Positions 10,820 through 26,761 of a stretch of 64,000 bases of DNA are shown here, piece after piece. This DNA is from Nitrospiraceae bacterium (GTDB lineage Bacteria; Nitrospirota; Thermodesulfovibrionia; Thermodesulfovibrionales; UBA1546). The stretch lies in assembly GCA_021373015.1 (NCBI GenBank), contig JAJFTJ010000005.1, positions 124,001 to 188,000 of the forward strand, written 5' to 3'. Below the pieces are notes generated by a model that saw only the letters and a program-made list of their open reading frames with translations, did no database searches and was not told where the DNA came from. Positions within the stretch are counted from its first letter, which is position 1; every line of letters begins with the position of its first letter. The translations under genes and the position numbers were made by a program.

Positions 10820-13800
10820 ATGGATGTAAAGCCTGTGCATAAGGGCAAGCCGACCCATAATATCTTCAATAAAATTGCACTGCTGTGTATGTCAATAGTT
10901 TTATTCATCAGTGTAGTTTCAATTGTTGGCTGGATTTCCGGCAGACTGATTGTCGCGAGTTACAGCTCGAAATATATTCCAATGGCTTTTACTACTGCTT
11001 TATTTTTTGCATTAATCAGTCTTTCATTTCTAACTTATATTCATAGCTTTTCAGATTTTTCCCGTAAGTTTGCCAGGGTTGCTGCAATTACAGTTATTTT
11101 TTACAGTTTTCTGACGCTTCTTCAACTTATTGTAAACGCTGATATAGGCATAGATACCTTTCTTGTAAGGGCACAGGATACTCTTAAAGACATCTCAATA
11201 GGCCATATGTCTCCCATAACTTCTCTGGGTTTTCTGCTTAGCGGGTTTTCACTGCTTGCTCTTACAACACGTTCTTTCAAATGGTTAGATACAAAGTACC
11301 TTTCTGCAGGATTATCATTAATAGTTGTTTCTATTGGTTTGATAATTGTTTCCGGATATATGACAGGAAGGCCGCTTCTTTACAGCGGAGGCATTGTCCC
11401 TGTAGCGCTGCCAACAGCGGTCGCATTTGTTGTCTCAGGTGCAGGAATGATTATGTCTGATATATCTCATGTTAAGTTCAGAACAAGCCAATTAATTATT
11501 TTTTCAAGAGGTCATTTATTTAATCAAAGATATTATCCTGTTGTTCTGGCATTTTTTACAGGTGTTATTTTCTCAATTACAATGGCAGTTATTGCGCACA
11601 AATTAGAACAAAAAAGCTCCAGAGACAGTTTCGATAAACATGCAGGCATTCTGTCAGCTACATTGCGAAAAAACATTGATGAAAATCTGGAAGTTTTAAA
11701 TTCTGTTAATGCTTTTTATACTGCTTCAAAGCAGGTTAGTCGTCATGAATTTCAGGTTTTTTTAGCGAAGATATTAGCTCAATATTCAGGAATTCAGGCA
11801 GTGGAATGGTTACCATTTGTTCCAGAGTCAAAACGAAATATTTATGAGCAGGCTGCTGTCAAGGACGGATTTGTAAAATTCAAATTTAAAGAACTCAATT
11901 CTCAAAACAAACTGATAACAGCAGCAAAACGCAAAGAATATTTTCCTGTGTATTTTATTGAACCTTTAAAAGGCAATGAATCTGCGCTTGGATTTGACGT
12001 AGCATCAAATCCCATAAGTCTGGAGGCATTGGAAAAGGCTCGTGATTTAGGGAAAATGGCTGGAACGGCAAGAATTAAATTAATACAAGAAACAAGCCAG
12101 CAATATGGTATTCTGATTTTTCAGCCTATTTACTTTAATGGCGGTTCTCACAATACTCTTAGTAAACGTAGGAAAAACCTTGCAGGTTTTGCACTTGGTG
12201 TGTTCAGAGTTGGTGATATTGTAGAATCTAGCTTAAAAAATCTTAATTATCAGGATTTTGGAATATACCTTTATGATTTAAGTTCAAAGACAGATGAAGA
12301 ACTTTTGTATACAAATACAAATGAACAAAAGCCAAAAAGTGTGATATTTGCATCGAAGACTTTGTTTGATATTGCAGGCCGCCAATGGATTATAAAGATT
12401 TATCCGAGTGAAAAATATTTATCTGCCCAGAACACATGGTATTCCTGGGCAGTTTTATCTGCTGGACTCATATTCACAATGATGCTCGTTGCATATATGC
12501 TTACACTTGAACGTCATGCAGCTGAGACTGAATGGTCAAAAAATGCAATAGCTTTAGATGAGGCCAGGCTTAATGCATTGTATAAACTCAGTCAAATGTC
12601 AGGCGAGTCAGAGGCAAAAATTACAGAATTTGCTTTGGAACAGGGAGTCAACCTAACAAGGAGCAAGATAGGATATCTGTATTTTTTTAATGAAGATCAT
12701 ATAAGCCTTGAACTTTTTTTATGGTCAAAAGAAGTTGCTAAGATATGCACTGCTGAAAAAATAAAACATTATCCTTTAAATGAAGCCGGGATTTGGGCTG
12801 ACTGCATAAGACAGAAGATCCCTGTTATTCATAATGACTATCAAAATAATAAAGACAAGAAAGGATATCCTCAGGGGCATGTGCATATAACAAGGCATAT
12901 GAGCATCCCGATATTCGACGGCGATAAAATAATAGCAGTTGCAGGAGTAGGGAATAAAGAAGAACCTTATGACGAAGCGGATGTGCGCCAGTTTTCGTTA
13001 TTTATGCATGACATGTGGAAGCTTTTAGAGCATAAAAGAATAAGTGAGAGAATTTTAAAGGCAAGGGATTTCTATCTAACTCTGCTCGAGACATTTCCTG
13101 CTCTGATCTGGCGTTCTGGCACAGATGCAAAATGCGATTATTTCAATAAGACATGGCTTGACTTCACAGGCAGGACTGTTGAACAAGAGATGGGAGATGG
13201 ATGGGCTGAAGGTGTTCATCGTGAAGATATTGACAGATGTGTAAAGACATACCTTGATGCGTTTAATAAAAGAGAACCTTTTGAGATGGAGTATAGACTA
13301 AGGCGTTATGACAGGGAATATCGGTGGATAGTTGATTTTGGAAGACCTTTTTATGATCTTGACAATAAGTTCGCTGGATATATAGGCTCCTGTTATGACA
13401 TTACAGATAAAAAACAAGCTGAGGAAGAGAGGCTTAAAACAAAAAAACTCGAATCAATAGGCATCCTCGCCGGAGGGATAGCCCATGATTTTAATAATCT
13501 TCTGACTGTTATCATCGGCGGGATATCTTTAGCAAGGATGCGTATAAAATCAGATAAAAATACATCTGAGCTTCTTGAAACAGCAGAAAAAGCATGCGAG
13601 CAGGCAAAAGAGCTGAGCTACAAACTTATCACATTTTCAAAAGGAGGAGAACCTTTCAAGAAAATATCATCTATATTAACGCTTATCAAGGAAGCCGCAG
13701 ATTCTTTGCTTAAAAATACAAATATAAAAACTGAGTTTTATTTAAGCCAGGAACCTTATCTTGTTGAGATAGACGAAGGGCAGATGCGACAGGTTGTAAA

Positions 13801-14164
13801 TAATCTTTTAATAAATGCCAAAGAAGCAATGCCTCAGGGCGGTAATCTTAAGATATCCGTAGACAATTTGATTGTTCATCCAAATGACAATCTTACGCTT
13901 GAACCAGGAAAATATGTAAAGATATCAATAAGTGACAGCGGAGTCGGCATACCAGAAAAAAATCTTTCAAGGATTTTCGACCCGTATTTTACGACAAAAG
14001 AAATGGGAAGCCAGAAAGGCATGGGTCTTGGTCTTGCCGTCTGCTACTCTATTATAAAAAACCATGGTGGATTGATTACCTTTGAATCAAAATATGGCGC
14101 AGGATCAACCTTTCACTTATATCTGCCTGCTTCAGCTAATCATACTAATCAGAAAGAAACATAG
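10820..14164 (+). CDS. Hybrid-sensor histidine kinase: membrane region, CHASE, GAF, PAS, HisKA, HATPase
   Basis: This 1114-residue membrane sensor kinase has about seven hydrophobic helices in the first 260 residues. A CHASE-type extracellular domain (around 270-520) is closed by another helix near 545. A GAF domain (about 585-735) is followed by a PAS domain with a PAC tail (about 750-870, ending YIGSCYDITDKK). The kinase core has phospho-His GGIAHDFNNLLTV, N box NNLLINAKEAMP, G1 DSGVGIP and G2 MGLGLAV. There is no receiver domain and no response regulator next to it, so its partner is elsewhere. The signal is unknown. The HDFNN form of the H box places it in the group often found in hybrid kinases. 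Confidence 0.88.
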   Translation: MDVKPVHKGKPTHNIFNKIALLCMSIVLFISVVSIVGWISGRLIVASYSSKYIPMAFTTALFFALISLSFLTYIHSFSDFSRKFARVAAITVIFYSFLTLLQLIVNADIGIDTFLVRAQDTLKDISIGHMSPITSLGFLLSGFSLLALTTRSFKWLDTKYLSAGLSLIVVSIGLIIVSGYMTGRPLLYSGGIVPVALPTAVAFVVSGAGMIMSDISHVKFRTSQLIIFSRGHLFNQRYYPVVLAFFTGVIFSITMAVIAHKLEQKSSRDSFDKHAGILSATLRKNIDENLEVLNSVNAFYTASKQVSRHEFQVFLAKILAQYSGIQAVEWLPFVPESKRNIYEQAAVKDGFVKFKFKELNSQNKLITAAKRKEYFPVYFIEPLKGNESALGFDVASNPISLEALEKARDLGKMAGTARIKLIQETSQQYGILIFQPIYFNGGSHNTLSKRRKNLAGFALGVFRVGDIVESSLKNLNYQDFGIYLYDLSSKTDEELLYTNTNEQKPKSVIFASKTLFDIAGRQWIIKIYPSEKYLSAQNTWYSWAVLSAGLIFTMMLVAYMLTLERHAAETEWSKNAIALDEARLNALYKLSQMSGESEAKITEFALEQGVNLTRSKIGYLYFFNEDHISLELFLWSKEVAKICTAEKIKHYPLNEAGIWADCIRQKIPVIHNDYQNNKDKKGYPQGHVHITRHMSIPIFDGDKIIAVAGVGNKEEPYDEADVRQFSLFMHDMWKLLEHKRISERILKARDFYLTLLETFPALIWRSGTDAKCDYFNKTWLDFTGRTVEQEMGDGWAEGVHREDIDRCVKTYLDAFNKREPFEMEYRLRRYDREYRWIVDFGRPFYDLDNKFAGYIGSCYDITDKKQAEEERLKTKKLESIGILAGGIAHDFNNLLTVIIGGISLARMRIKSDKNTSELLETAEKACEQAKELSYKLITFSKGGEPFKKISSILTLIKEAADSLLKNTNIKTEFYLSQEPYLVEIDEGQMRQVVNNLLINAKEAMPQGGNLKISVDNLIVHPNDNLTLEPGKYVKISISDSGVGIPEKNLSRIFDPYFTTKEMGSQKGMGLGLAVCYSIIKNHGGLITFESKYGAGSTFHLYLPASANHTNQKET

Positions 14165-15039: not shown

Positions 15040-15387
15040 TTAAAATTCATCTTCTGTTACAACATCTTTCTTAATACCTGAAATGAGCGCTTCAAAAACA
15101 GGTAAAACATTTTTTCTGAAATGGCCTGCGACAAGTACATACATAATGTCATCTCCAATATTCAGCCTGCCTTCATTAATCCATGCTCTTATTGCGATTA
15201 CACCTTCCTTGCGATTGTATCCTGATACCAAGGTTTCAAGCTTTGTTTTGTCATATGATAGATCCATCCCTTTTATTTTTCTGCCCTCTTTGGATGTTGC
15301 CCTGACAAGCCCATTGTGTATCAAAATCATTCCCAATTCTTCAGGGTTGGCTCTCTGTTTCACTTCTTTAATCCATTGTTCAATCAT
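15040..15387 (-). CDS. MoaE-like protein (molybdopterin synthase large-subunit fold), possibly non-catalytic
   Basis: This 115-residue protein resembles MoaE over most of its length: IHNGLVRATSKEGRKIKGMDLSYD matches the strand and loop after the MoaE N-terminus, and LNIGDDIMYVLVAGHFRKNVLPVFEALISGIKKDV matches the conserved GD-containing strand and long helix. Molybdopterin synthase needs lysines near the C-terminus (the WKKE motif). Here the tail is IKKDVVTEDEF, with lysines but no WKKE. No moaD, moaA or moeA is adjacent. It is either a divergent MoaE or a related protein with another role. A GGAGG site precedes the ATG. Confidence 0.55.
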   Translation of the reverse strand: MIEQWIKEVKQRANPEELGMILIHNGLVRATSKEGRKIKGMDLSYDKTKLETLVSGYNRKEGVIAIRAWINEGRLNIGDDIMYVLVAGHFRKNVLPVFEALISGIKKDVVTEDEF

Positions 15388-15498: not shown

Positions 15499-16305
15499 GT
15501 GAAACTCTCTCTATTACGGAGGTGTAAAATAGTTAAATCTTCTGAAAAATCTGTGATATTTTATCACAGAGCGCATATACAGTTATCGAATACAAAACAG
15601 CATTTTTTACTCTTCGTTGTTTTAATGCTAGTACTGTCTGCTTCAATATATTTCATTACTCCTTCCGTGACATTTTTTATAAATGATTTTGCAAAAAACA
15701 TTCTCTCAGATTATTTTCCTTCAGATTTAATAAACATAATCGAAAAGTCTTTTGTTAAGGATATCTATATTCTTAGTATGCCTGAGAAATATCCGGAGCC
15801 TCTGCTTCCTCCTGCACTTTTTTTATTTTCGTTGTTAAGTATCTTTTTGATAATAAAAACAAAACTTCCAGCTCCTGTTGTTATATGGATAGTATATTCT
15901 TCAATAGTAAATCTTATTTCTTCGATATTTTTTATATTTTTTTACGACCAGTTCCCTTATAACATTGAGGCATTTACTGAGTTATATATAAAGACTGAAG
16001 TAAATATATGGATTTTTATCCCGATTATAATGGGCATGGCGCTTTCATCTCTGCCGTCTAGAATATTTTCGAAGGTAGGGTTAGTTGTTCTGACAATCAT
16101 CTATTCAATGATACTCGGGCTAATAAGATATGTAGCATTTATTTATGTTCTCGCAGATTTTTCTCTGATCTTTATGCCTCTTCTTTTCTTTGCCTTCGGA
16201 CCGTTTATGGACTTTGTATATATCGTAGGAATGTATTCTTTGTATATAAGCAATTATGCTAAAAAAATAGGAAAGGACCTCAGAATATGGAAATGGTTGT
16301 CTTAG
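15499..16305 (+). CDS. Multi-pass membrane protein, first gene of the exopolysaccharide operon
   Basis: I do not recognise a family. The 268-residue frame encodes a basic N-terminus and about six hydrophobic helices, including segments starting LLFVVLMLVL, LPPALFLFSLL and VGLVVLTIIYSM, and it ends in a basic tail (KKIGKDLRIWKWLS). The last 19 bp overlap the GT2 synthase gene, so it is probably its membrane partner, comparable in position to accessory subunits of other synthase systems. The start is uncertain. The GTG at 15499 directly abuts its GGAG, whereas a second GGAGG at 15518-15522 points to an AUA at 15529. Confidence 0.6.
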   Translation: MKLSLLRRCKIVKSSEKSVIFYHRAHIQLSNTKQHFLLFVVLMLVLSASIYFITPSVTFFINDFAKNILSDYFPSDLINIIEKSFVKDIYILSMPEKYPEPLLPPALFLFSLLSIFLIIKTKLPAPVVIWIVYSSIVNLISSIFFIFFYDQFPYNIEAFTELYIKTEVNIWIFIPIIMGMALSSLPSRIFSKVGLVVLTIIYSMILGLIRYVAFIYVLADFSLIFMPLLFFAFGPFMDFVYIVGMYSLYISNYAKKIGKDLRIWKWLS

Positions 16306-17600
16306 TCCTGAAAGCCTATTTTATATTTGTGGCTTTTATAATGATGATTTATGCTGTAAGGCATTACATTTTTATTTTAAACAGGATGTTTGGAGAACAG
16401 AGGATTTATTATCAGGACATAATAGATTCAGAGCTCCCCTCGGTTTCTGTTCTGGTTCCAATGCACAATGAAGAAAAAATGGCTTCAAATATTCTGGATA
16501 GGCTTGTAACCGTCAATTATCCAAAGGAAAAGCTCGAGATAGTTCCTCTGGACGGAAATGTTTATCCAAGCGGGAAGCTTGAAATAATACCAATAAATGA
16601 CCATTCAACAGATCAGACTTCGGTAATCCTTGATAAATATGCTGAAAAATATTCAACGATAAAACCTTTTCACAGGAATACAGGTGACCGCGGAAAACCA
16701 TCAGCATTGAATGATGTGTTGAAAGAGGCTAAGGGAGAGATAGTTGTAATATTTGATGCCGACTATCTGCCTCCGAAGGGAATTATACGAGACATAGCTG
16801 TTTCATTCAGCGACCCTGAAGTCGGAGCAGTTATGGGACGTGTTATCCCAATAAACACAGGAAAAAATTTTCTGACAAGATGTCTGGATTTGGAAAGAAC
16901 AGGAGGTTATCAGGTTGATCAGCAGGCAAGATATAATCTTAAATTAATCCCTCAGTATGGAGGCACTGTCGGAGGGTTCAGAAAAGATCTTATAATTGAA
17001 CTCGGCAGTTTTGACCCAAATGTGTTGACAGAAGATACAGAACTCACATTTAAATTGTTTATTAATGGATGGAAGGTGGTTTATGCGAACAGAGTCGAAT
17101 GTTACGAAGAATCACCTGAAGAATGGCGTGTAAGGGCAAGACAGATAAGGAGATGGTCAAGAGGACATTCGCAGGTAATGTTTAAATATCTAATTCCATT
17201 ACTTAAATCAAAGTGTCTGTCTTTCAGAGAAAAATTTGACGGTTCTTTATTGATGTTTGTCTATACAGTTCCATTTGTTCTTCTTACAGGACTTATCAAT
17301 GCGGCAATACTGTTTTTTTTGGGAGAAATGAATATTATTTCAAACCTTATTGTTTTTCTATTTCTTGGTATTTATAACACATTTGGAAATTTTGCGACAT
17401 TTTATCAAATCGGTACTGGTGCGGTGCTTGACGGCGCAAGTTACAGGGTGCGCCTTCTGCCATTTTTTATTTTCAATTTTTTGTTCAATATATGGTACAC
17501 ATCTCTCGGTTTTGTCGATGCAATAATTGACTTATTTACGAAAAGAAGATCCGTATGGCAGAAAACTAAAAGATACGGGAACGGAACGGTTAAGGTCTAA
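16287..17600 (+). CDS. Processive family-2 glycosyltransferase (polysaccharide synthase)
   Basis: This 437-residue membrane glycosyltransferase is probably the polymer synthase of the operon. After an N-terminal helix (residues 5-30) the GT-A domain shows VSVLVPMHNEE, the first Asp in INDHSTDQT, the DXD in VIFDADYLPP, TED in LTEDTELTF, and the processive-synthase motif QIRRW. Three or four membrane helices follow (about 325-420). The layout matches PgaC and hyaluronan-synthase-like enzymes. No PilZ domain is present. Near residues 78-107 a 15-residue unit is imperfectly duplicated, just ahead of the first catalytic Asp. The gene overlaps both neighbours and shares one base with the next start. 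Confidence 0.88.
   Translation: MEMVVLVLKAYFIFVAFIMMIYAVRHYIFILNRMFGEQRIYYQDIIDSELPSVSVLVPMHNEEKMASNILDRLVTVNYPKEKLEIVPLDGNVYPSGKLEIIPINDHSTDQTSVILDKYAEKYSTIKPFHRNTGDRGKPSALNDVLKEAKGEIVVIFDADYLPPKGIIRDIAVSFSDPEVGAVMGRVIPINTGKNFLTRCLDLERTGGYQVDQQARYNLKLIPQYGGTVGGFRKDLIIELGSFDPNVLTEDTELTFKLFINGWKVVYANRVECYEESPEEWRVRARQIRRWSRGHSQVMFKYLIPLLKSKCLSFREKFDGSLLMFVYTVPFVLLTGLINAAILFFLGEMNIISNLIVFLFLGIYNTFGNFATFYQIGTGAVLDGASYRVRLLPFFIFNFLFNIWYTSLGFVDAIIDLFTKRRSVWQKTKRYGNGTVKV
16518..16607 (+). repeat. Imperfect 45-bp in-frame tandem duplication inside the GT2 gene
   Basis: Units 16518-16562 and 16563-16607 each start TATCCAA and encode YPKEKLEIVPLDGN and YPSGKLEIIPINDH. The first ten codons agree at about two thirds of the bases, and the rest have diverged. 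The period is exactly 15 codons, so the frame is kept. Confidence 0.7.
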
Positions 17601-18598
17601 TGTCTATAATGCTGATTTTTATAGGATTCTTTATTCTTATTATGATACCTTTTATCCCTGGGATAATAGAAATGCTCAGACCAAAAGATTCGGATCCGCT
17701 TTTTATAAAAATGGATTATACGAAAGACCCAAGATATTTTGGAACTGCATTTAAAAGTCTCCTGAAAGAGAGTCTGTCAGACCTTAAGGAAGGGAATAAA
17801 GATGTAAGATTATCCAAAGATGAAGTTGTGAAAATATCCAGCTCAGAAAATATAAAAAGAAACACAGAAGTTTCTACTATTATTTATTTTCTTGGCAAGC
17901 TTGAATCCGAAGATAACGTAAAGTTTGACAAGGAGATTTACGTTGCTGATAGCGTGGAGATAGGGGCAAATGGCATTGTGAGGGCGATAGCTTGCGACAG
18001 GGATATATCTCTTTCTGAAAATGTGAATGTAATAAGATGGCTTGATGCTGAGGGGAAAATAACAGCAGAAAATGGCTGTGATTTAGGTATAAGCTCTTCC
18101 TGTTCCAAAGAATTCAGGATTGCCGATAACTGCAGATTCAAGCGTATTTTGGGCTCTCCTGTTATTACTTTCAGAAAATCTAATGGCAGGATGTCTGTTT
18201 CGAACAAAGAGAGGCATGCGATTTTGGTTGATGATGAGAAGTGCACTGTAATACCTGAAAACACAGAAACAGCAAAAACCATTATCATCAAGCAGGATCT
18301 CTTAATTAAAGACAATTGTATTTTCAGAGAGAGCGTAAAGGCATACGGGAATATTATTATCGGTAAGAATGTTCAGATTTCAGGAAATCTTTTTTCTGAA
18401 AAAAGCATAGATATATTAGAAGGTTCTCAAATCAAAGGAAATGTTTTTTCTCAGGGGCATATACAAATTAGAAATAATGTAGAAATTGGAACTAATAATA
18501 AGATGAAGTCAGTCATTGGGAAGAAAGGCGTTCTGATAGGTCAGGATGTTACCATACACGGATATATAATGACTGAGGGAGCAGGGCTAATAACATGA
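17600..18598 (+). CDS. Membrane-anchored bactofilin-like (polymer-forming) beta-helix protein
   Basis: This 332-residue protein begins with one hydrophobic anchor (MLIFIGFFILIMIPFIPGI). A charged linker follows, and then regularly spaced Ile/Val/Gly turns typical of a right-handed beta-helix, for example VYGNIIIGKNVQISG written as short strands near residues 250-320 (IIIGKNVQISGNLFSEKSI, ILEGSQIKGNVFSQGHI, VLIGQDVTIHGYI). This pattern is that of bactofilin (DUF583) domains, which form filaments and scaffold envelope machinery. Its position directly after the synthase suggests a scaffold for the polysaccharide complex. The role is inferred from context; the fold is moderately sure. Confidence 0.65.
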   Translation: MSIMLIFIGFFILIMIPFIPGIIEMLRPKDSDPLFIKMDYTKDPRYFGTAFKSLLKESLSDLKEGNKDVRLSKDEVVKISSSENIKRNTEVSTIIYFLGKLESEDNVKFDKEIYVADSVEIGANGIVRAIACDRDISLSENVNVIRWLDAEGKITAENGCDLGISSSCSKEFRIADNCRFKRILGSPVITFRKSNGRMSVSNKERHAILVDDEKCTVIPENTETAKTIIIKQDLLIKDNCIFRESVKAYGNIIIGKNVQISGNLFSEKSIDILEGSQIKGNVFSQGHIQIRNNVEIGTNNKMKSVIGKKGVLIGQDVTIHGYIMTEGAGLIT

Positions 18599-20424
18599 AA
18601 AGAATCTTGACAATGGTTTTAATTGTAGTTTCTCTTGGTATTATTTTGTATAGTACGCTGCCAATATATCAGCGTTGGAAATTGTCAAAAGATTTGTCTA
18701 TGAAGGTTCTTTTGGTTTACAGCCCCTATAAAACGGACAATAATTCAATTTTGAAAGCATACTCAAGCGTTCTGGAAGAAGAAGGTGTTTCCTATGAAAA
18801 AATAAACGCTTATTCCCTTATAATGTTAAAAGCCGAAGAAACAGCAAAAACCAAGCCTGTAATAATATTTCCTGACGGAGCAGCCCAGATCCTTCCACAT
18901 GGAATGACATCATGGATTAATGGATATCTTTCCAGCGGAGGAAGTATAGCGATTATATATGATGCGGGCACAAAAAGCCGAAAAGGAAACTTTGTAGATA
19001 ATACGGTTTTTTCGGATATCGCAGGAATAAATTATATTCAATATAATCAGCTCAAAAAAGATGCATTCACAACAGGATTTCTTAAATTTGATAGTTATCA
19101 AAAAGCTGATTTTTTAGAAATCCCACGCGGCAAGCTGGAGAATGACCTGACGTTGAGCAGTTATGGTTACGGCGCCTTAGAATATCCAATTTCGAGAAAT
19201 GAAATAAAACAAGACCAGAAAATCAACGAGATTGCTTATGTGGTTTCAAAAGATGGTAAAAGATATCCTGCTGTTGCAATCAGGCCCTTTGCTAAAGGAA
19301 ATGTTCTTTATGTGAATCTTCCATTGGGACACCTTAAGAGCAACACCGATGATCTCCCTATGAGAGCTATTTTAAGGACATTTTTATTTAAAGTTGTAAG
19401 GATTCCTCATCTGCTTAATGTTCCGTACGGAAAAGGAGGACTTGTCGTAAACTGGCATATTGACTCTAATGATGATTGGGAATGGCTTCCGTATATGATA
19501 GATAATGGATATTTCCGAAAAGGCATAGATTATTCTATGCATGTAACTGCGGGTGATTTCAGAGATAAGCCCGGAGACGGAATAGGGTTCCAGGCATGCG
19601 GAAAAGGCAGGCCATTTATTCTAATGATAAAGGATTTTGGTTTTGTAGGATCTCACGGCGGATGGGGGCACAATTGGTTTGCAGATAATATTGAAAAAGG
19701 AATCTTTAAAAAGGATGAAATAACGAAATACATAAAAAAGAACAATGACTGTCTTGAGAGTGTAACAAAACAAAAAGTCATAGAATACTCTGCGCCAAAC
19801 GGTGTTCATCCCCAGCCTGTAACAACCGAAATATTGGATAAACTTGGCGTTATCTCATACTACTCTACAGGAGATACTGGCTCACATCCGAACAGATCAT
19901 TCATAGCAAACAAAATGGTTTCCGACAAAGTCTTTGCTTTTCCTGTCATGCCTTTTGGAAAATACGCTTCGCTTTATGAGATGAAGAAAGCCGGTAAATC
20001 TGAAAATGAGATTAAAAAATGGTTTAAAGAAACTGTTGATTATATTGTCGCAAACAGAAACATCAGGCTGGTTTATTCGCATCCATACAATATCGAAGAT
20101 TACAAAAAAGGGACAAAATATTTTATTGATTATATCGAAAAACTTTACAAAGAAAATAAACTTCAGGTTAAATCAATGAGTTATTTCACGTACTTTATAA
20201 AAAGATTTTTAAATACAAAATTTATATTTGAACAAAAGGATGGTAGACTCGCGGCGCATCTGTATAACAAAGAGAATCTTGAAGGAATAACGTTGGCTGT
20301 TCCTAAAAATCTTTATAAGAAACCTGTAACAGAAAAAGCATTAATTCAGGAGGATAAAGATTACTATTATTTAGTGGTCAAGGACAAAAAAAATGAAGAA
20401 ACTTTTTATTTTGACGGCATTTAG
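18595..20424 (+). CDS. DUF2194-like protein: glutamine-amidotransferase-like domain plus NodB-like deacetylase domain
   Basis: This 609-residue protein has an N-terminal membrane anchor (residues 4-22). A flavodoxin/ThuA-like alpha-beta domain follows (about 30-270, with KPVIIFPDGAA and the GGSIAIIYDAG strand). A polysaccharide-deacetylase-like domain covers about 275-510. In the latter, WHIDSNDDW supplies acidic metal-binding candidates, SHGGWGHNW a pair of His, and YSAPNGVHP the following motif. NodB-family enzymes deacetylate or cleave acylated sugars. The order resembles DUF2194 proteins, whose activity is not established. It overlaps its neighbours by 4 and 32 bp. It probably modifies the polymer in the periplasm. 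Confidence 0.65.
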   Translation: MKRILTMVLIVVSLGIILYSTLPIYQRWKLSKDLSMKVLLVYSPYKTDNNSILKAYSSVLEEEGVSYEKINAYSLIMLKAEETAKTKPVIIFPDGAAQILPHGMTSWINGYLSSGGSIAIIYDAGTKSRKGNFVDNTVFSDIAGINYIQYNQLKKDAFTTGFLKFDSYQKADFLEIPRGKLENDLTLSSYGYGALEYPISRNEIKQDQKINEIAYVVSKDGKRYPAVAIRPFAKGNVLYVNLPLGHLKSNTDDLPMRAILRTFLFKVVRIPHLLNVPYGKGGLVVNWHIDSNDDWEWLPYMIDNGYFRKGIDYSMHVTAGDFRDKPGDGIGFQACGKGRPFILMIKDFGFVGSHGGWGHNWFADNIEKGIFKKDEITKYIKKNNDCLESVTKQKVIEYSAPNGVHPQPVTTEILDKLGVISYYSTGDTGSHPNRSFIANKMVSDKVFAFPVMPFGKYASLYEMKKAGKSENEIKKWFKETVDYIVANRNIRLVYSHPYNIEDYKKGTKYFIDYIEKLYKENKLQVKSMSYFTYFIKRFLNTKFIFEQKDGRLAAHLYNKENLEGITLAVPKNLYKKPVTEKALIQEDKDYYYLVVKDKKNEETFYFDGI

Positions 20425-21289
20425 TCTCTATTTGCTTTCTGCAGCTTATGCTGACATTGATATTTGCAAGAACCATCCTGCATTAAAAATATCAAGGCAT
20501 TTTGTCCCTGATGAAAAAGATGTGAATTATATTAATCCTTATATAGCCAATATCGAGTCAATATACCTTCTTCAAAAAGGCACAGAACCCAGGATGATTG
20601 GAGATTATATCTCCTGGTATTTAAATCACACGAATTATTCAGATAAATTTGATCTTACAGGCACAATGTATGATTACAAAATATACTGCAAGGGTTGGGA
20701 AAGGGCATTAGAATCATACGACTCGGCTGATGGTTATGCAGGGACATTTCTTTTTCTGGTTTACGAATATTTTACAAAGACTAAGGATAAAGAAATAATT
20801 TTTAAGAACAAACAAAAACTTGAAGATATAGCATATGTTATAGCTCATCTCCAGGATGAAGATGGTCTTACACGTGCTTTACCAGGTAAAAATACTAAAT
20901 ATTTGATGGATAATTGTGAAGCATACGCAGGCATAAGAGCATTTAATAAATTGTCTAAAGAAATAGGCTGGGGTGTAAATGCGTATTATGTCGAACTCGA
21001 ACAGAATATTAAGGACGGCATTTTGTCGTATCTATACAAAGAAGATAAAGAATATTTTTATTGGGCAATAGAAGGCAAGAAGGTTTTTGTGCCTGACAAT
21101 AATAAGTTTTACCCTGATGCTTTGTCACAGATATTCCCGATACTTTATGACTTAATGGATGAGAATAAGGAGTTAAAGCAAATTATGTGGAAAAAGTTTA
21201 AAGATAAATATTCGAATAAAATGAATCTTTTCTCTTCTGAGCAGAGGTTGATTTTCGAGCTTACAGAGAGGAAAATGAGCAGTAAATGA
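20393..21289 (+). CDS. Secreted alpha/alpha-toroid glycoside-hydrolase-like protein
   Basis: This 298-residue protein has a signal peptide (MKKLFILTAFSLYLLSAAYA, cleavage after residue 20). The mature part is helical with paired-helix spacing like the (alpha/alpha)6 barrels of GH8, GH88 and related enzymes. The motif YDSADGYAGTFLFLVYEY (about 97-115) supplies two Asp and is the best candidate for the active site, and NCEAYAGIRAF repeats the pattern further on. I cannot name the family. Placed after a deacetylase-like gene, it could trim the polymer, as the hydrolases in other synthase-dependent loci do. It overlaps the previous gene by 32 bp. Confidence 0.55.
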   Translation: MKKLFILTAFSLYLLSAAYADIDICKNHPALKISRHFVPDEKDVNYINPYIANIESIYLLQKGTEPRMIGDYISWYLNHTNYSDKFDLTGTMYDYKIYCKGWERALESYDSADGYAGTFLFLVYEYFTKTKDKEIIFKNKQKLEDIAYVIAHLQDEDGLTRALPGKNTKYLMDNCEAYAGIRAFNKLSKEIGWGVNAYYVELEQNIKDGILSYLYKEDKEYFYWAIEGKKVFVPDNNKFYPDALSQIFPILYDLMDENKELKQIMWKKFKDKYSNKMNLFSSEQRLIFELTERKMSSK

Positions 21290-22491
21290 AAATTCTAGTT
21301 GTGTTTGGCACCAGACCTGAGGCTATAAAACTTTCATCTGTGATTCATCTGCTGAAGGATAAGTTTGATGTAAAGATTCTGTCCTCAGGCCAGCATCTGG
21401 AACTAACCAATCAGGCAATTAATTTTTTTGGGATAAAACTGGATTATAACCTTGCTTGTATGCCAAAAAAACCGGATCTCATGGTAGTTTACGAGAAAAT
21501 TATTTTAAAAATGAAGCGTATAATCGATAAGGAAAATCCTGACCTTTTGATTGTTCAGGGAGATACCCTGAGTACTTATTCAGGAGCTTTTCTGGGCTTT
21601 ATGTTTAAAAAACCTGTTTTGCATGTTGAGGCAGGATTAAGAACTTTCAATAATTTTTCTCCATTTCCTGAAGAGATGCTGCGGCTTTTGGTGTCGCGCC
21701 TTGCATGTTTTCATTTTGTTCCTACAAAAAGATCAGCTGAGAACCTAATTGCAGAAGGCATAAAAAAAGACAAAATATTTATTTCAGGGAATACTGTGGT
21801 TGATTCTTTGCTTTATACAAAGAAAAATATTAATGAAAAGACGGTTTTTGAAGAGCTTGCAAAGACTAATCAAGGAATAGAAAAGAAAATCCATTCTAAA
21901 AAACTAATACTGATTACATCACATAGAAGAGAAAACATTGGAGAACCGCTGAGAAATATATGCAGGGCAGTGAAACAGCTTGCGGACAAGTATAAAGATG
22001 CATTTTTCTTGTGGTCTCTTCATAAAAACCCTGATATAAGAAAGATAGTGTTGGATGAAATCTCAGGAAATTCAGATAATATAATATTGTCTGAATCATT
22101 TTCATATCAAACTTTGATTTATTTAATGGAAAATTCTCATATAATAATGACTGATTCAGGAGGCATACAGGAAGAAGCGCCTACATTTCATAGGCCTTTG
22201 ATAATTCTGAGAGAATCAACAGAAAGACAAGAAGTTGTTGAAAAAGGCATAGGTTTTCTTACAGCATGCAATATAGACAAAACAGTGAATATATTTACTT
22301 CTTTATATGAAGATAAAGAATTTTATAGTAATATTTCGAAGAAATCTAATCCATTTGGAGACGGAAAGGCTTCGAAAAGGATTCTGGATTTTCTCCTGCT
22401 GGATGAAGTGAAAAGTTTTATAAAAAATTACCCTGCCTCATCGGAACAGATACTAAATGTAAAAGGAAAAGTAGATGAATTTAAAGAATGA
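21286..22491 (+). CDS. wecB: UDP-N-acetylglucosamine 2-epimerase (non-hydrolysing)
   Basis: The enzyme interconverts UDP-GlcNAc and UDP-ManNAc. The 401-residue length is close to that of WecB. Motifs include the N-terminal VVFGTRPEAIKL, QGDTLSTYSGA, HVEAGLRTF, ITSHRRENIG and the nucleotide-binding TDSGGIQEEAP. Inside this operon it most likely supplies UDP-ManNAc for the GT2 synthase, so the polymer may contain ManNAc or a derivative. No UDP-ManNAc dehydrogenase is present in the window. The start overlaps the previous stop in ATGA form, and the end overlaps the barrel gene by 17 bp. Confidence 0.9.
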   Translation: MKILVVFGTRPEAIKLSSVIHLLKDKFDVKILSSGQHLELTNQAINFFGIKLDYNLACMPKKPDLMVVYEKIILKMKRIIDKENPDLLIVQGDTLSTYSGAFLGFMFKKPVLHVEAGLRTFNNFSPFPEEMLRLLVSRLACFHFVPTKRSAENLIAEGIKKDKIFISGNTVVDSLLYTKKNINEKTVFEELAKTNQGIEKKIHSKKLILITSHRRENIGEPLRNICRAVKQLADKYKDAFFLWSLHKNPDIRKIVLDEISGNSDNIILSESFSYQTLIYLMENSHIIMTDSGGIQEEAPTFHRPLIILRESTERQEVVEKGIGFLTACNIDKTVNIFTSLYEDKEFYSNISKKSNPFGDGKASKRILDFLLLDEVKSFIKNYPASSEQILNVKGKVDEFKE

Positions 22492-23293
22492 ACTGAAAAA
22501 AACAATTGTTTTAGCCGCTGTATTTTTTGTGTTTTTCCCATGTATTATTCATGCGGAAGATGCAGATCAGGAAAAGAAAAACCGAATAGAAGCAGTTTTT
22601 TCTTATGAATATCTGAACCCTAATGAAACTTATGGAGAGTGGAAAGGGCTTTCCCTTGCATTTTACAGAACGCCTTCTAGTGACCTGACATATTTTATTC
22701 AGGGAGGAACTTTCTGGAGAAAAGAAGGAAACGGATTTACGGGAACCGTCGGCGCTTATAAAGACTGGCTTGAAAGACTTTATACCTATTCTGCAGTTTC
22801 TGCTGGAACTAATTCAGAATATCTGCCGAAATTCAGAATAGACCATGATTTTAATTTCAAATTAGGTCCTGAAAAAAATATTGTATGGATAGCAGGCATA
22901 AGCTATTTGCAGTATTTCGGCGATCATAGAGACCTAATCTTATCAACAGGAGTTGCATTATACTACCCTGAAGATTGGGTATGGGAATACAGAATTTTCA
23001 GAAACGACAGCAGCCCTGGAAATGTTATTTCTTATTCTCATCTGATAAGTGCGGGGTATGGAAGGGAGAAATGGCAGTGGACATATCTTGACGTTTCGTT
23101 TGGCAATCAGGCTTATAATGCAACCAATTTAGAAAGCCCGGAAAAGGTTGATCAAAATGCCTTAAGAGTAGGATTAAGAAATAAAACTTGGATAGGCAAG
23201 GATTATGGTGTAATGGGTGATGTAAGTTTTTTCAAGCTTCAGGACGGTTATAAAAAATATGGTTTTTCGTTGGGTGTATTCAAAGAATTTTAA
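22475..23293 (+). CDS. YaiO-family outer-membrane beta-barrel protein
   Basis: This 272-residue protein has a signal peptide ending after residue 27 (CIIHAEDA). The mature part is made of alternating aromatic strands and ends in Phe (SLGVFKEF), as outer-membrane barrels do. The pattern matches the YaiO family: EAVFSYEYLNPNETYGEW, the repeated short turns and AVSAGTNSEYLPKFRIDHDF. A 12-strand barrel would fit the length. As the last gene of the operon it could be the polysaccharide exit pore, although no TPR domain like that of PgaA is attached. AAGGA lies 8 bp before the ATG. Confidence 0.75.
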   Translation: MNLKNELKKTIVLAAVFFVFFPCIIHAEDADQEKKNRIEAVFSYEYLNPNETYGEWKGLSLAFYRTPSSDLTYFIQGGTFWRKEGNGFTGTVGAYKDWLERLYTYSAVSAGTNSEYLPKFRIDHDFNFKLGPEKNIVWIAGISYLQYFGDHRDLILSTGVALYYPEDWVWEYRIFRNDSSPGNVISYSHLISAGYGREKWQWTYLDVSFGNQAYNATNLESPEKVDQNALRVGLRNKTWIGKDYGVMGDVSFFKLQDGYKKYGFSLGVFKEF

Positions 23294-23335: not shown

Positions 23336-23878
23336 TTAATCTAAACTCTCAAGCTCTTTTTTAAAAAATTCCATTGTTCTTTCATCAAAGACGCAGAATT
23401 CAATAACCTCCAGCGAAGTTTTAGGGTTATCTTTAAAATAATTTGCAGATTCTCTGACCAATATTTTTGCACATCTGTCCTTTGGAAACCCGAATATGCC
23501 TGAGCTTATTGCAGGCATAGAGATGCTTTTAAGGTTGTTTTCAGATGCAAGTTTAAGCGCACTAAGCACAGCATTCCCCAGTTTGTTGTCTTCATTGCCT
23601 TCGCCTATAATTGGTCCAACTGTATGTATGACAAATTTTGCATGGAGTCTGCCTGCATTTGTTATCACTGATGTGCCTACAGGCGTATAGCCGATCTTGT
23701 CGCTTTCTTCCTGAATTACTGCTCCGCCTTCTCTGACTATTGCTCCTGCAACGCCGCCTCCGTGTTGAAGATAAGAGTTAGCCGCATTGACAATAGCATC
23801 GACTTTTCGTTCTGTAATATCACCTTGAACGATTCTTAATGTACGGTTTTGAATAGTCTTTTCAGTTATCAGTTTCAT
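23336..23878 (-). CDS. Macro-domain protein (O-acetyl-ADP-ribose deacetylase type)
   Basis: This 180-residue single macro domain binds ADP-ribose and its derivatives. The family hydrolyses O-acetyl-ADP-ribose or removes ADP-ribose from proteins. The ligand-binding motifs are VDAIVNAANSYLQHGGGVAGAI, VIHTVGP and AISSGIFGFP. The catalytic Asn and Asp-like positions of the YmdB type are kept. It is convergent with the YaiO gene and divergent from nfeD, about 36 bp apart. Confidence 0.92.
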   Translation of the reverse strand: MKLITEKTIQNRTLRIVQGDITERKVDAIVNAANSYLQHGGGVAGAIVREGGAVIQEESDKIGYTPVGTSVITNAGRLHAKFVIHTVGPIIGEGNEDNKLGNAVLSALKLASENNLKSISMPAISSGIFGFPKDRCAKILVRESANYFKDNPKTSLEVIEFCVFDERTMEFFKKELESLD

Positions 23879-23913: not shown

Positions 23914-25209
23914 ATGTTAAAAAACATCAGTAAACTAATCAGCATAGTTTTTTTCTTGGTTTTATTTCTGCCTTTTTTTGTTTTTTCTGAAACGCCTAAA
24001 AATTATGTTATGGTCATTACTGTCAACGGAGTAGTTAACCCTTCATCAGCTGAATATATAAGCAAGAGTATAAAAGAGGCTAACAAACAAAAATATCAAG
24101 CTCTTATAATCCAGCTCGACACACCTGGCGGCCTTGATACATCAATGCGGACGATCGTTAAAGACATTATTGCAAGTGAAGTCCCTGTTGTTGTCTATGT
24201 TTCTCCAAGCGGAGCAAGAGCTGCTTCAGCAGGAGTATTCATAACTCTTGCAGCACATGTAGCGGCAATGTCTCCTGGAACTAACATCGGCGCTGCGCAT
24301 CCTGTTGGAGTTGGTGAAAAAATGGACAAGACAATGGCTCAAAAAGCAACGAATGACGCTGCAGCTTATGTAAAGTCGCTTGCAGAAAGAACAGGAAGAA
24401 ATTCAAAGTGGGCTGAAGATGCTGTAAGAAAAAGTATATCTGCAACTGAACAAGAGGCTTTGAAAGAAAATGTCATTGATTTGGTAAGTAAGGATATAAA
24501 ATCACTGCTTTCTGAAATAGACGGCAAAAAAGTTAAAACCATTATGGGAGATAAAACACTTCATACTGCCAACTCAGGAATTGTGAAGGGTGAAATGGGA
24601 TTCAGGCATAGGATATTGAATGTTATAACTGATCCCAGTGTTGCATACATTCTCATGCTTTTAGGATTTTACGGTCTGTTTTTTGAGCTTACAAGTCCGG
24701 GTGCAGTCTTTCCTGGTGTTGTTGGCGGTATATGTCTGATACTTGCTTTTTACGCATTCCAGATGCTGCCTGTTAATTATGCCGGATTACTGCTTATTGT
24801 TTTGGCCATAATACTCTTTGTTCTTGAGGTTAAGATAGTTTCTCATGGAGCGCTTACTATTGGAGGAATAGTGTCGATGATCTTCGGTTCTCTAATGCTT
24901 TTTGATTCTCCTGAACCTTTTATGAGGCTCTCGATTCTCCTTGTCCTGCCAGCAGTGCTTGTAACAGCATTTTTCTTTATAATGGTGTTTCGACTTGCAT
25001 ACAAGGCATACAGGATAAGACCTATTACAGGAGCTGAGGGTCTTATCGGCTTAGAAGGCATTGCCAATACAGATATAACAAAAAGCGGAGGCATGGTATT
25101 GGTAAATGGAGAAATCTGGTCAGCACATTCTGATCCAGACATACTAAAAGGCGAAAAAGTAATTGTTGAGAATGTATCAGGTTTAAAATTAAAAGTAAGG
25201 AAATCTTAA
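23914..25209 (+). CDS. nfeD: NfeD-family membrane serine protease (stomatin operon partner)
   Basis: This 431-residue protein has a signal or anchor segment (residues 8-28), a ClpP-like protease domain (about 30-225), four to five membrane helices (about 240-370) and a C-terminal OB domain (NfeD, 375-431). The catalytic Ser is in RAASAGVFITLAAH and the Lys in MAQKATNDAAAY, matching the Ser-Lys dyad of the archaeal homologue PH1510. PH1510 cleaves stomatin-like proteins, and the next gene here is exactly such a protein. TPGGLDTSM forms the conserved oxyanion loop. Confidence 0.92.
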   Translation: MLKNISKLISIVFFLVLFLPFFVFSETPKNYVMVITVNGVVNPSSAEYISKSIKEANKQKYQALIIQLDTPGGLDTSMRTIVKDIIASEVPVVVYVSPSGARAASAGVFITLAAHVAAMSPGTNIGAAHPVGVGEKMDKTMAQKATNDAAAYVKSLAERTGRNSKWAEDAVRKSISATEQEALKENVIDLVSKDIKSLLSEIDGKKVKTIMGDKTLHTANSGIVKGEMGFRHRILNVITDPSVAYILMLLGFYGLFFELTSPGAVFPGVVGGICLILAFYAFQMLPVNYAGLLLIVLAIILFVLEVKIVSHGALTIGGIVSMIFGSLMLFDSPEPFMRLSILLVLPAVLVTAFFFIMVFRLAYKAYRIRPITGAEGLIGLEGIANTDITKSGGMVLVNGEIWSAHSDPDILKGEKVIVENVSGLKLKVRKS

Positions 25210-25227
25210 TTTAAACAGGAGGAAAAC

Positions 25228-25986
25228 ATGGGTTCTTTAGGTTTGGGAACGATTTTCGCGTTATTTTTTATAATTTATTTTCTTTCAAGTGCAATCAAAG
25301 TTCTGAGGGAATATGAAAGAGGCGTTGTATTCAGGCTTGGAAGGATCATCCCTGTTAAAGGGCCGGGTCTTGTCCTTATTTTTCCTGTAATCGATAAGCT
25401 TGTAAGGGTGAGTCTCAGGACCATTGCCTTTGATGTCCCTGCGCAGGATGTAATTACGAGGGATAACATCTCGGTGAAGGTTAATGCCGTTGTATATTTC
25501 AGAGTCATAGACCCTATAAGGGCGATAACAGCTGTGGAGGACTTTTATTATGCAACCTCACAGATGGCGCAGACCAGCTTAAGAAGTATTCTCGGCCAGA
25601 GCCAGCTTGATGACCTCTTGGCAAAAAGAGAGGACATCAATGCTGAACTTCAGAAGGTGATAGACCAGCAGACAGAGCCTTGGGGGGTAAAGGTTACTGC
25701 AGTTGAAGTAAAGAATGTTGACCTTCCTGTAGAGATGCAAAGGGCGATTGCAAAACAGGCAGAGGCTGAGCGTGAAAGAAGGGCAAAGGTCATACACGCA
25801 GAGGGAGAATTTCAGGCATCGCAGAGACTTGCAGATGCAGCAAAGATTATTGCAACTGAAAGCGGAGCTCTGCAGCTTAGATTTCTCCAGACACTGACTG
25901 AGATTGCAACAGAAAAAAACTCTACTATAATATTCCCTGTGCCGATAGATTTAATAAAACCATTTATTGATAAGATGGGGAAATAA
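25228..25986 (+). CDS. Slipin / SPFH-domain (band 7) membrane protein
   Basis: This 252-residue stomatin-like protein has an N-terminal hydrophobic hairpin (residues 5-22), the SPFH domain (about 25-180, [63 protein letters not shown]) and a coiled-coil tail of [11 protein letters not shown] type. Such proteins form ring-like lipid microdomains and pair with NfeD proteases. It lies 18 bp after nfeD with AGGAGG 7 bp upstream. The family usually acts in membrane organisation. Confidence 0.94.
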
Positions 25987-26014
25987 AGTCGGTACGACTC
26001 TGTGAGACAGGACT

Positions 26015-26761
26015 GTGTTTTGTCAGAGATTCACAACGAAAAGGAGTTGGATAATAACAACTTTTAAAAATAGAACTTGGTTCAAAATGGCCCTGCTTGT
26101 ATTAATTGTTGCAGGGTCAATATTTATACTTTATAAATCAGGTCTAGTTGCGTTTTTTCTCAGCAGAGAACGCATAGCTGAATTTCTTAATTCTCTCGGT
26201 CCATTTTCATTTCTTGGTTTCATCGCACTACAATCTATACAGGTTATTGCTGCTCCTATTCCAGGAGAGGTGACAGGTTTTATCGGCGGTTATGCATATG
26301 GGATATTAGGCGGCATATTGTTTTCTACAATCGGTCTGACCATAGGTTCATTTGTGGCCTTTTCCCTTACTCGATATTTCGGGCATCCATTTATAGAAAA
26401 ATTTGTAAAAAAAGAGACTATGGAGAAGTATGATTATCTATTGCATCATAAAGGAGCTTTTCTTGTTTTCCTGCTTTTCTTGATCCCTGGTTTTCCTAAA
26501 GATTCTCTCTGCTATATCCTTGGCCTTGGACACCTTACTGCAAAAGAATTTTTAATCATAAGCACAGTGGGGAGGTTTGCAGGAACAGTTCTACTCACAC
26601 TAGGAGGGGATTACATTCAGCGTAAAGAATATTACAGTTTTTCGATCCTTATAGGGATCGCAATTATTCTTATCTTTCTGGCAATGGTTTATAGGCAAAA
26701 ACTGGAATATATTTTCAAAAGACTGCACCGTACTTCCACTAAAGAAAAAGACGGAAAGTAA
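26015..26761 (+). CDS. VTT-domain (TVP38/TMEM64-type, SNARE-associated) membrane protein
   Basis: This protein of up to 248 residues has about six hydrophobic segments. The VTT/DedA signature is IAAPIPGEVTGFIGGYAYG (about residues 82-100), followed by TIGLTIGSFVAFSLTRYFG and LLFLIPGFPKDSLCY. The family includes lipid scramblase-type proteins and poorly understood permeases. The start is in doubt. GTG at 26015 has a weak AGGA. A much better AAGGAG at 26041-26046 lies 4 or 7 bp before two AUA codons at 26051 and 26054, and no normal start is close by. It ends 4 bp from the stop of the convergent gene. Confidence 0.82.
   Translation: MFCQRFTTKRSWIITTFKNRTWFKMALLVLIVAGSIFILYKSGLVAFFLSRERIAEFLNSLGPFSFLGFIALQSIQVIAAPIPGEVTGFIGGYAYGILGGILFSTIGLTIGSFVAFSLTRYFGHPFIEKFVKKETMEKYDYLLHHKGAFLVFLLFLIPGFPKDSLCYILGLGHLTAKEFLIISTVGRFAGTVLLTLGGDYIQRKEYYSFSILIGIAIILIFLAMVYRQKLEYIFKRLHRTSTKEKDGK

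Follow-up and report, generated by a model that had tools for sequence, protein, structure and literature searches.

A 2020 article counts five synthase-dependent exopolysaccharides (PMC7112194). Of the systems described so far, Pga contains PgaC, the nearest characterised GT2 to the synthase reported here, and combines this GT2 with a periplasmic CE4-type deacetylase, a glycosidase activity and an outer-membrane barrel, an arrangement whose counterparts are predicted in our locus. A second point of comparison is provided by the deacetylases Agd3 (CE18) and PelA (CE21) and by the Pel system, since the part of PMC7229062 that deals with domain layout describes Agd3 as a GATase1-like domain, a CE domain and a C-terminal domain, a layout that recurs in one of our proteins. 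The bacterial Agd3-type operons described there include GH114 and Pel-like parts, and their description names neither WecB nor YaiO nor a bactofilin. In Escherichia coli, the uncharacterised yaiO-yaiX-yaiP-yaiS cluster brings together a YaiO barrel, a membrane GT2, an acyltransferase (yaiX) and a deacetylase gene, yaiS, which we take to encode a different, PIG-L-type enzyme. Cellulose (Bcs) systems pair a processive GT2 with an (alpha/alpha) toroid hydrolase, BcsZ, a member of GH8.

The window analysed here is a 64,000-nucleotide stretch from a Nitrospiraceae bacterium. At positions 15499-23293 of its forward strand lie seven open reading frames with consecutive overlaps of 19, 1, 4, 32, 4 and 17 bp; the coordinates and overlaps proposed in a prior reading made from the sequence alone (hereafter the sequence-only reading) proved exact to the base. 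We refer to the genes as A to G:

A, 15499-16305, + strand: inner-membrane protein (open reading frame, alignment, AlphaFold model, hydropathy)
B, 16287-17600, + strand: processive GT2 synthase, PgaC-like (family searches, motif alignment)
C, 17600-18598, + strand: bactofilin-like beta-helix with a single transmembrane helix (family searches, hydropathy, SPOR-TM-beta-helix fusions)
D, 18595-20424, + strand: membrane-anchored, probably periplasmic predicted deacetylase (homologue profiles, comparison with the Agd3 architecture)
E, 20393-21289, + strand: secreted protein with an (alpha/alpha) toroid fold, probably a glycoside hydrolase of the periplasm (predicted fold, conserved residues)
F, 21286-22491, + strand: WecB, non-hydrolysing UDP-GlcNAc 2-epimerase (family searches)
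G, 22475-23293, + strand: YaiO outer-membrane beta-barrel without a TPR domain, candidate exporter (family searches)

Both neighbouring genes, a MoaE-like gene (15040-15387) and a macro-domain gene (23336-23878), are encoded on the opposite strand and thus bound the operon. Its GC content of 0.33-0.37 is at most mildly low relative to 0.35-0.41 in the surroundings, and this comparison gives no clear mark of a compositional island. No Rfam match to a c-di-GMP or other riboswitch was found upstream of the operon. A promoter scan gave matches no more numerous than in shuffled sequence, and the terminator scan likewise gave a result close to shuffled sequence, neither scan being informative.

Family searches of the seven proteins identified B as a PgaC-like GT2, F as WecB and G as YaiO, and returned weak or no matches for A, C, D and E. 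Compared to Pga, the locus has no homologue of PgaD, of the TPR-porin PgaA or of PgaB, and it adds a separate toroid (E), a bactofilin-like helix (C), WecB and membrane protein A. Specifically, D does not match E. coli PgaB, no window protein matches PgaA, and family searches of the seven proteins gave no PgaD match, the comparison for PgaD being by family and not by reference sequence. The Pel glycosyltransferase, a PelG-like gene and GH114 or GH166 domains are also absent, as are matches to BcsB, BcsC and PilZ. Homologues of A, C, D and E were not detected in the E. coli yai cluster. Within the open-access literature on YaiO, bactofilin and exopolysaccharide, synthase-dependent systems and poly-N-acetylmannosamine, we found no published description of the seven-gene set.

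Predicted synthase, membrane partner and bactofilin-like protein

B contains every motif of a processive GT2 that the sequence-only reading had listed (D, DXD, TED and QxxRW), namely D105, DAD157-159, TED248-250 and Q286xxRW290. The catalytic D, E, Q, R and W residues are invariant among 20 homologues, and of the TED motif the ED pair is kept in all. A profile of B scored 124 bits against E. coli PgaC and 60 bits against YaiP; orthology with YaiP was therefore rejected, PgaC scoring twice as high. The best NCBIfam match is PgaC/IcaA (TIGR03937), at 122 bits far below the cut-off of 422, and the CelA family is matched weakly (71 bits against a cut-off of 699). Among PDB entries, B is closest to GT2 family enzymes and cellulose synthase. 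Some related GT2s (HpnI, MftF and ArnC-like enzymes) act on lipids or cofactors, and B could accordingly decorate a lipid or short glycan destined for periplasmic modification and transfer to the outer membrane, where YaiO would be an accessory barrel. We regard this as very unlikely, because the processive-synthase motifs, including QxxRW, are all invariant in the 20 homologues and because a glycosidase-type toroid, a deacetylase and an outer-membrane barrel together follow the synthase-dependent pattern. The window's B also carries a 15-residue in-frame insertion that is absent from 19 homologues; in this region (16518-16607), a self-match at an offset of 45 bp (26 of 45 bases, against a background of 7-15) suggests that a tandem duplication arose just before the D105 motif and has since diverged.

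The sequence-only reading had left A as an unknown membrane protein. Its membrane nature holds, with six predicted transmembrane helices and a hairpin between the first two, whereas the label "unknown" gives way to a more specific description. P99, FPY152-154, S222, F231, GP234-235, D238 and Y246 are invariant among 17 homologues, and the AlphaFold model is a confident six-helix structure (pLDDT 85) for which Foldseek found no relative in the PDB (best E 0.2). Sequence searches gave no Pfam family and nothing usable from the PDB. A is thus best described as a conserved, predicted partner of the GT2 within the core, and its modelled fold has no counterpart in the PDB. Weak matches of the GT2 to Xrt-associated glycosyltransferases raised the idea that A is an exosortase; this identity was rejected, as the hhalign probability in the comparison with PF09721 members was 0.1%, whereas an exosortase positive control reached 94.9%, and A has no conserved Cys.

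For C, the proposed bactofilin-like character finds support in the homologues, 16 of 19 of which match PF04519 at E up to 1 (best 1.4e-7), but not in the window protein itself, which remains below the cut-off (15 bits against 27.9, E 0.03). C has one transmembrane helix, and in most homologues more positive charges follow the helix than precede it, which by the positive-inside rule would place the beta-helix domain in the cytosol. This charge pattern suggests that the domain serves as a cytosolic scaffold. The view that it stands in place of PgaD/PilZ parts is only an analogy. Both the recurrence of the bactofilin-like domain and its likely cytosolic side also fit a reading in which A and C are the main novelty and C polymerises as bactofilins do, so that the cluster would build a localised structure (a stalk, a holdfast or a polar adhesin, for instance) in place of a general matrix. 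With the window's C below the bactofilin cut-off, we consider this rather unlikely; it is more a refinement of the exopolysaccharide reading preferred below than its opposite. In other Nitrospirota, C has distant relatives of SPOR-TM-bactofilin-like architecture (L021:8187-9797, L020:991-2676 and L023:6794-8554), the first of which adjoins a SPOR-TPR protein.

Predicted periplasmic enzymes and outer-membrane barrel

D begins with a GATase1-like domain, continues with one that is CE4-like and ends in a C-terminal tail domain. The window protein falls below the cut-off of the deacetylase family PF01522 (E 0.046), whereas 20 of 22 homologues match this family (best 2.9e-6) and six of the 22 match a GATase-like N-terminal domain. 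The GATase-plus-NodB protein named in the sequence-only reading can be described more closely: in its layout D is closer to multi-domain deacetylases of the Agd3/PelA type than to a plain NodB enzyme, and the first motif is HxD where canonical CE4 enzymes have DD. The CE4-like residues are H288xD290, H354, H359 and H496; the alignment shows HxD, HxxxxH and H496 to be conserved, although D290 aligns with a Cys in Cupriavidus. The second motif, HxxxxH, differs from the HxxxH of CE4 MT2, and H496 would correspond to the MT5 His. Agd3 and PelA differ from D in the same two places, with DD or HxDxD in the first motif and HxxxH in the second. PDB sequence searches gave no deacetylase and nothing else usable, and a profile search of the PDB returned neither CE18 (Agd3) nor CE21 (PelA) proteins at E up to 10. 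The likeness to Agd3 and PelA is one of domain layout only. PelA may nevertheless offer a partial precedent by analogy, since the MT3 Arg is also absent from it and a conserved His is present in its motif 1 (PMC12022489). D is predicted to be a membrane-anchored deacetylase, probably of the periplasm.

The sequence-only reading's call of E as a signal-peptide alpha/alpha-toroid protein is matched by a confident fold prediction (pLDDT 89), and Foldseek places this model with (alpha/alpha)6 glycoside hydrolases and AGE epimerases. Besides the epimerases, the nearest structures are enzymes of GH78, GH116, GH94, GH100 and GH76. Residues D110, D113, D173, N174 and E176 are kept even in Cupriavidus. 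Based on the predicted fold, E is probably a periplasmic glycoside hydrolase with a glycosidase-type toroid.

G exceeds both YaiO family cut-offs by a wide margin (PF19413, 101 bits against 23.9; TIGR04390, 141 against 32), as expected from its earlier assignment as a YaiO barrel. Family searches found no TPR domain in it, unlike the TPR-bearing exporters BcsC, PgaA and AlgK/PelB of synthase-dependent systems. We infer that G is a candidate outer-membrane exporter of the polymer. The machine would work in the manner of those systems, with the TPR part that defines them missing or replaced.

Recurrence and lateral transfer of the gene block

A search with the C protein in the window's own class identified two genomes of the same taxonomic order that carry all seven genes, arranged F-A-B-C-D-E-G and F-G-A-B-C-D-E. 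In a genome from another family of the phylum (G269), A-B-C-D and D-E-F-G occupy two separate contig ends, matching the arrangement in the window; its cluster WecB (L096:1540-2566) is split into two overlapping reading frames, possibly a frameshift or an assembly error. The megaplasmid pMTS1 of Cupriavidus also has all seven genes, divergent in sequence (D is only about 26% identical) and fully reshuffled as F-D-B-C-E-G-A. The presence of all seven genes together in distant genomes indicates that their association is not due to chance.

Scanning genome contigs with D as a single sequence gave nothing, whereas an alignment-based scan found 25 loci in named genomes: Nitrospirota, Sporomusa malonica, Phascolarctobacterium faecium, a Firmicutes MAG, Elusimicrobiota, Aquificota, Acidobacteriota, Cloacimonadota, Calescibacteriota, an unclassified proteobacterium and an Eremiobacterota MAG. 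About 20 loci from some eight phyla, Negativicutes loci among them, have the core genes adjacent in the order A-B-C-D, as do nearly all loci where the contig extends far enough. The sequence-only reading had staked its proposal on the genes co-occurring outside the source genome, and the gene-order search found that they do so widely. E, F and G flank the core in variable order, and comparison of the flanking genes revealed no further gene recurring as part of the block. The clusters of Sporomusa, Phascolarctobacterium and Calescibacteriota do not include F, and no G was found at the Phascolarctobacterium and UBA3943 loci. In P. faecium, the place expected for YaiO is taken by a 574-residue, secreted-looking protein without a family (L045:12704-14428), which may be another outer-membrane exporter. 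Consistent with an envelope-spanning machine, the system occurs in lineages that are, or are presumed to be, diderm.

The system is rare among Nitrospirota, being present in 4 of 396 genomes. Well-supported groupings that cross phylum borders are consistent among the trees of A, B, C and D (Aquificaceae pair with Thermodesulfovibrionales, for example), and these shared pairings in the sequence trees indicate that the cluster has been transferred laterally between phyla as one unit. Solo homologues of D in Bacillota, the phylum of Sporomusa (L088-L094), mostly lie near pfkA/pyk with no A, B or C alongside and constitute a second use of the D family. A Cloacimonadota MAG contains two D genes in tandem (L048:3-3205).

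Donor sugar and the proposed machine

F is a WecB by a wide margin (TIGR00236, 359 bits against a cut-off of 210), in line with its first assignment, and is the only WecB of the source genome. All 13 system-bearing genomes examined encode a WecB above the cut-off, compared with 20 of 60 system-free relatives (Fisher 6.6e-6), and in five genomes the only copy sits inside the operon. Where F is missing from the locus, WecB is encoded elsewhere in 7 of 7 genomes, a frequency that exceeds the 20 of 60 relatives (Fisher 0.001) and is not significant against 14 well-known control genomes (10 of 14, p 0.25); the co-occurrence is thus support for a UDP-ManNAc donor and no proof of it. The WecG/TagA family of ManNAc transferases is absent from the five genomes checked that have WecB in the operon. 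Because the source genome encodes a nucleotide-sugar dehydrogenase, the sugar could also be ManNAcA; in another genome with an operon WecB (G071, 92% complete), no such dehydrogenase scored above the cut-off, which favours ManNAc over ManNAcA there. UDP-ManNAc, the donor named in the sequence-only reading, is therefore the best-supported candidate. Alternatively, the same machine could use UDP-GlcNAc to make a PNAG-like polymer, WecB feeding a minor branch or another surface sugar, as might be expected from PgaC/IcaA being the nearest GT2 family of B and from the three lineages whose cluster is without F. That each F-less genome tested encodes WecB elsewhere, that the operon copy is the sole one in five genomes and that even the divergent Cupriavidus cluster has WecB make this alternative unlikely.

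Taken with a UDP-ManNAc donor, these data make it probable that the seven genes encode one envelope-spanning, synthase-dependent exopolysaccharide machine with export through YaiO. Two general features of such systems are found here: a processive inner-membrane GT2 (DXD, TED, QxxRW) and predicted periplasmic modification enzymes, with D and E linked at most loci. A c-di-GMP receptor (PilZ, PgaD or PelD) was not found among the seven proteins by family searches. In the proposed scheme, F would convert UDP-GlcNAc to UDP-ManNAc, and B with its constant partner A would build a hexosamine polymer, most likely one that consists of ManNAc or contains it, and extrude this chain across the inner membrane, while C, as a cytosolic bactofilin-like helix, would cluster or position the synthase. 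In the periplasm, D would hold the chain by its GATase-like domain and take off some of the acetyl groups, E would trim the chain, and G would let it exit through the outer membrane. The sequence-only reading is thus partly supported overall: a new combination of the synthase-dependent kind is upheld by the gene set, the GT2 motifs and the recurrence as a unit. We suggest, more tentatively, an unrecognised class of machine, spread to at least eight phyla by lateral transfer, that would use a cytoskeleton-like scaffold and a synthase partner of new fold to produce a cationic, partly deacetylated polymer of mannosamine. Our open-access literature search turned up no mannosamine homopolymer of the proposed type.

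If correct, this would add a further, phylogenetically broad synthase-dependent exopolysaccharide, set apart by its own synthase partner (A), a bactofilin-like component, a deacetylase of non-canonical type and a barrel that lacks TPR, and would widen the rules for polymer passage through two membranes. Annotators would gain names for three nameless protein families (A, D and E). The system occurs in culturable organisms, among them the gut commensal P. faecium, Sporomusa and Cupriavidus, and is therefore directly testable.

Two observations concern the surroundings of the operon. Upstream, the window encodes a large PAS/GAF sensor histidine kinase (10820-14164), which is possibly regulatory; a related reading frame lies near the Sporomusa operon (L034:5146-6645). 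Downstream (23914-26761) are genes for an NfeD-like protease and stomatin/HflK-like proteins together with a third gene, and relatives of the NfeD-like gene are also located near two Aquificota loci (L041 and L057).
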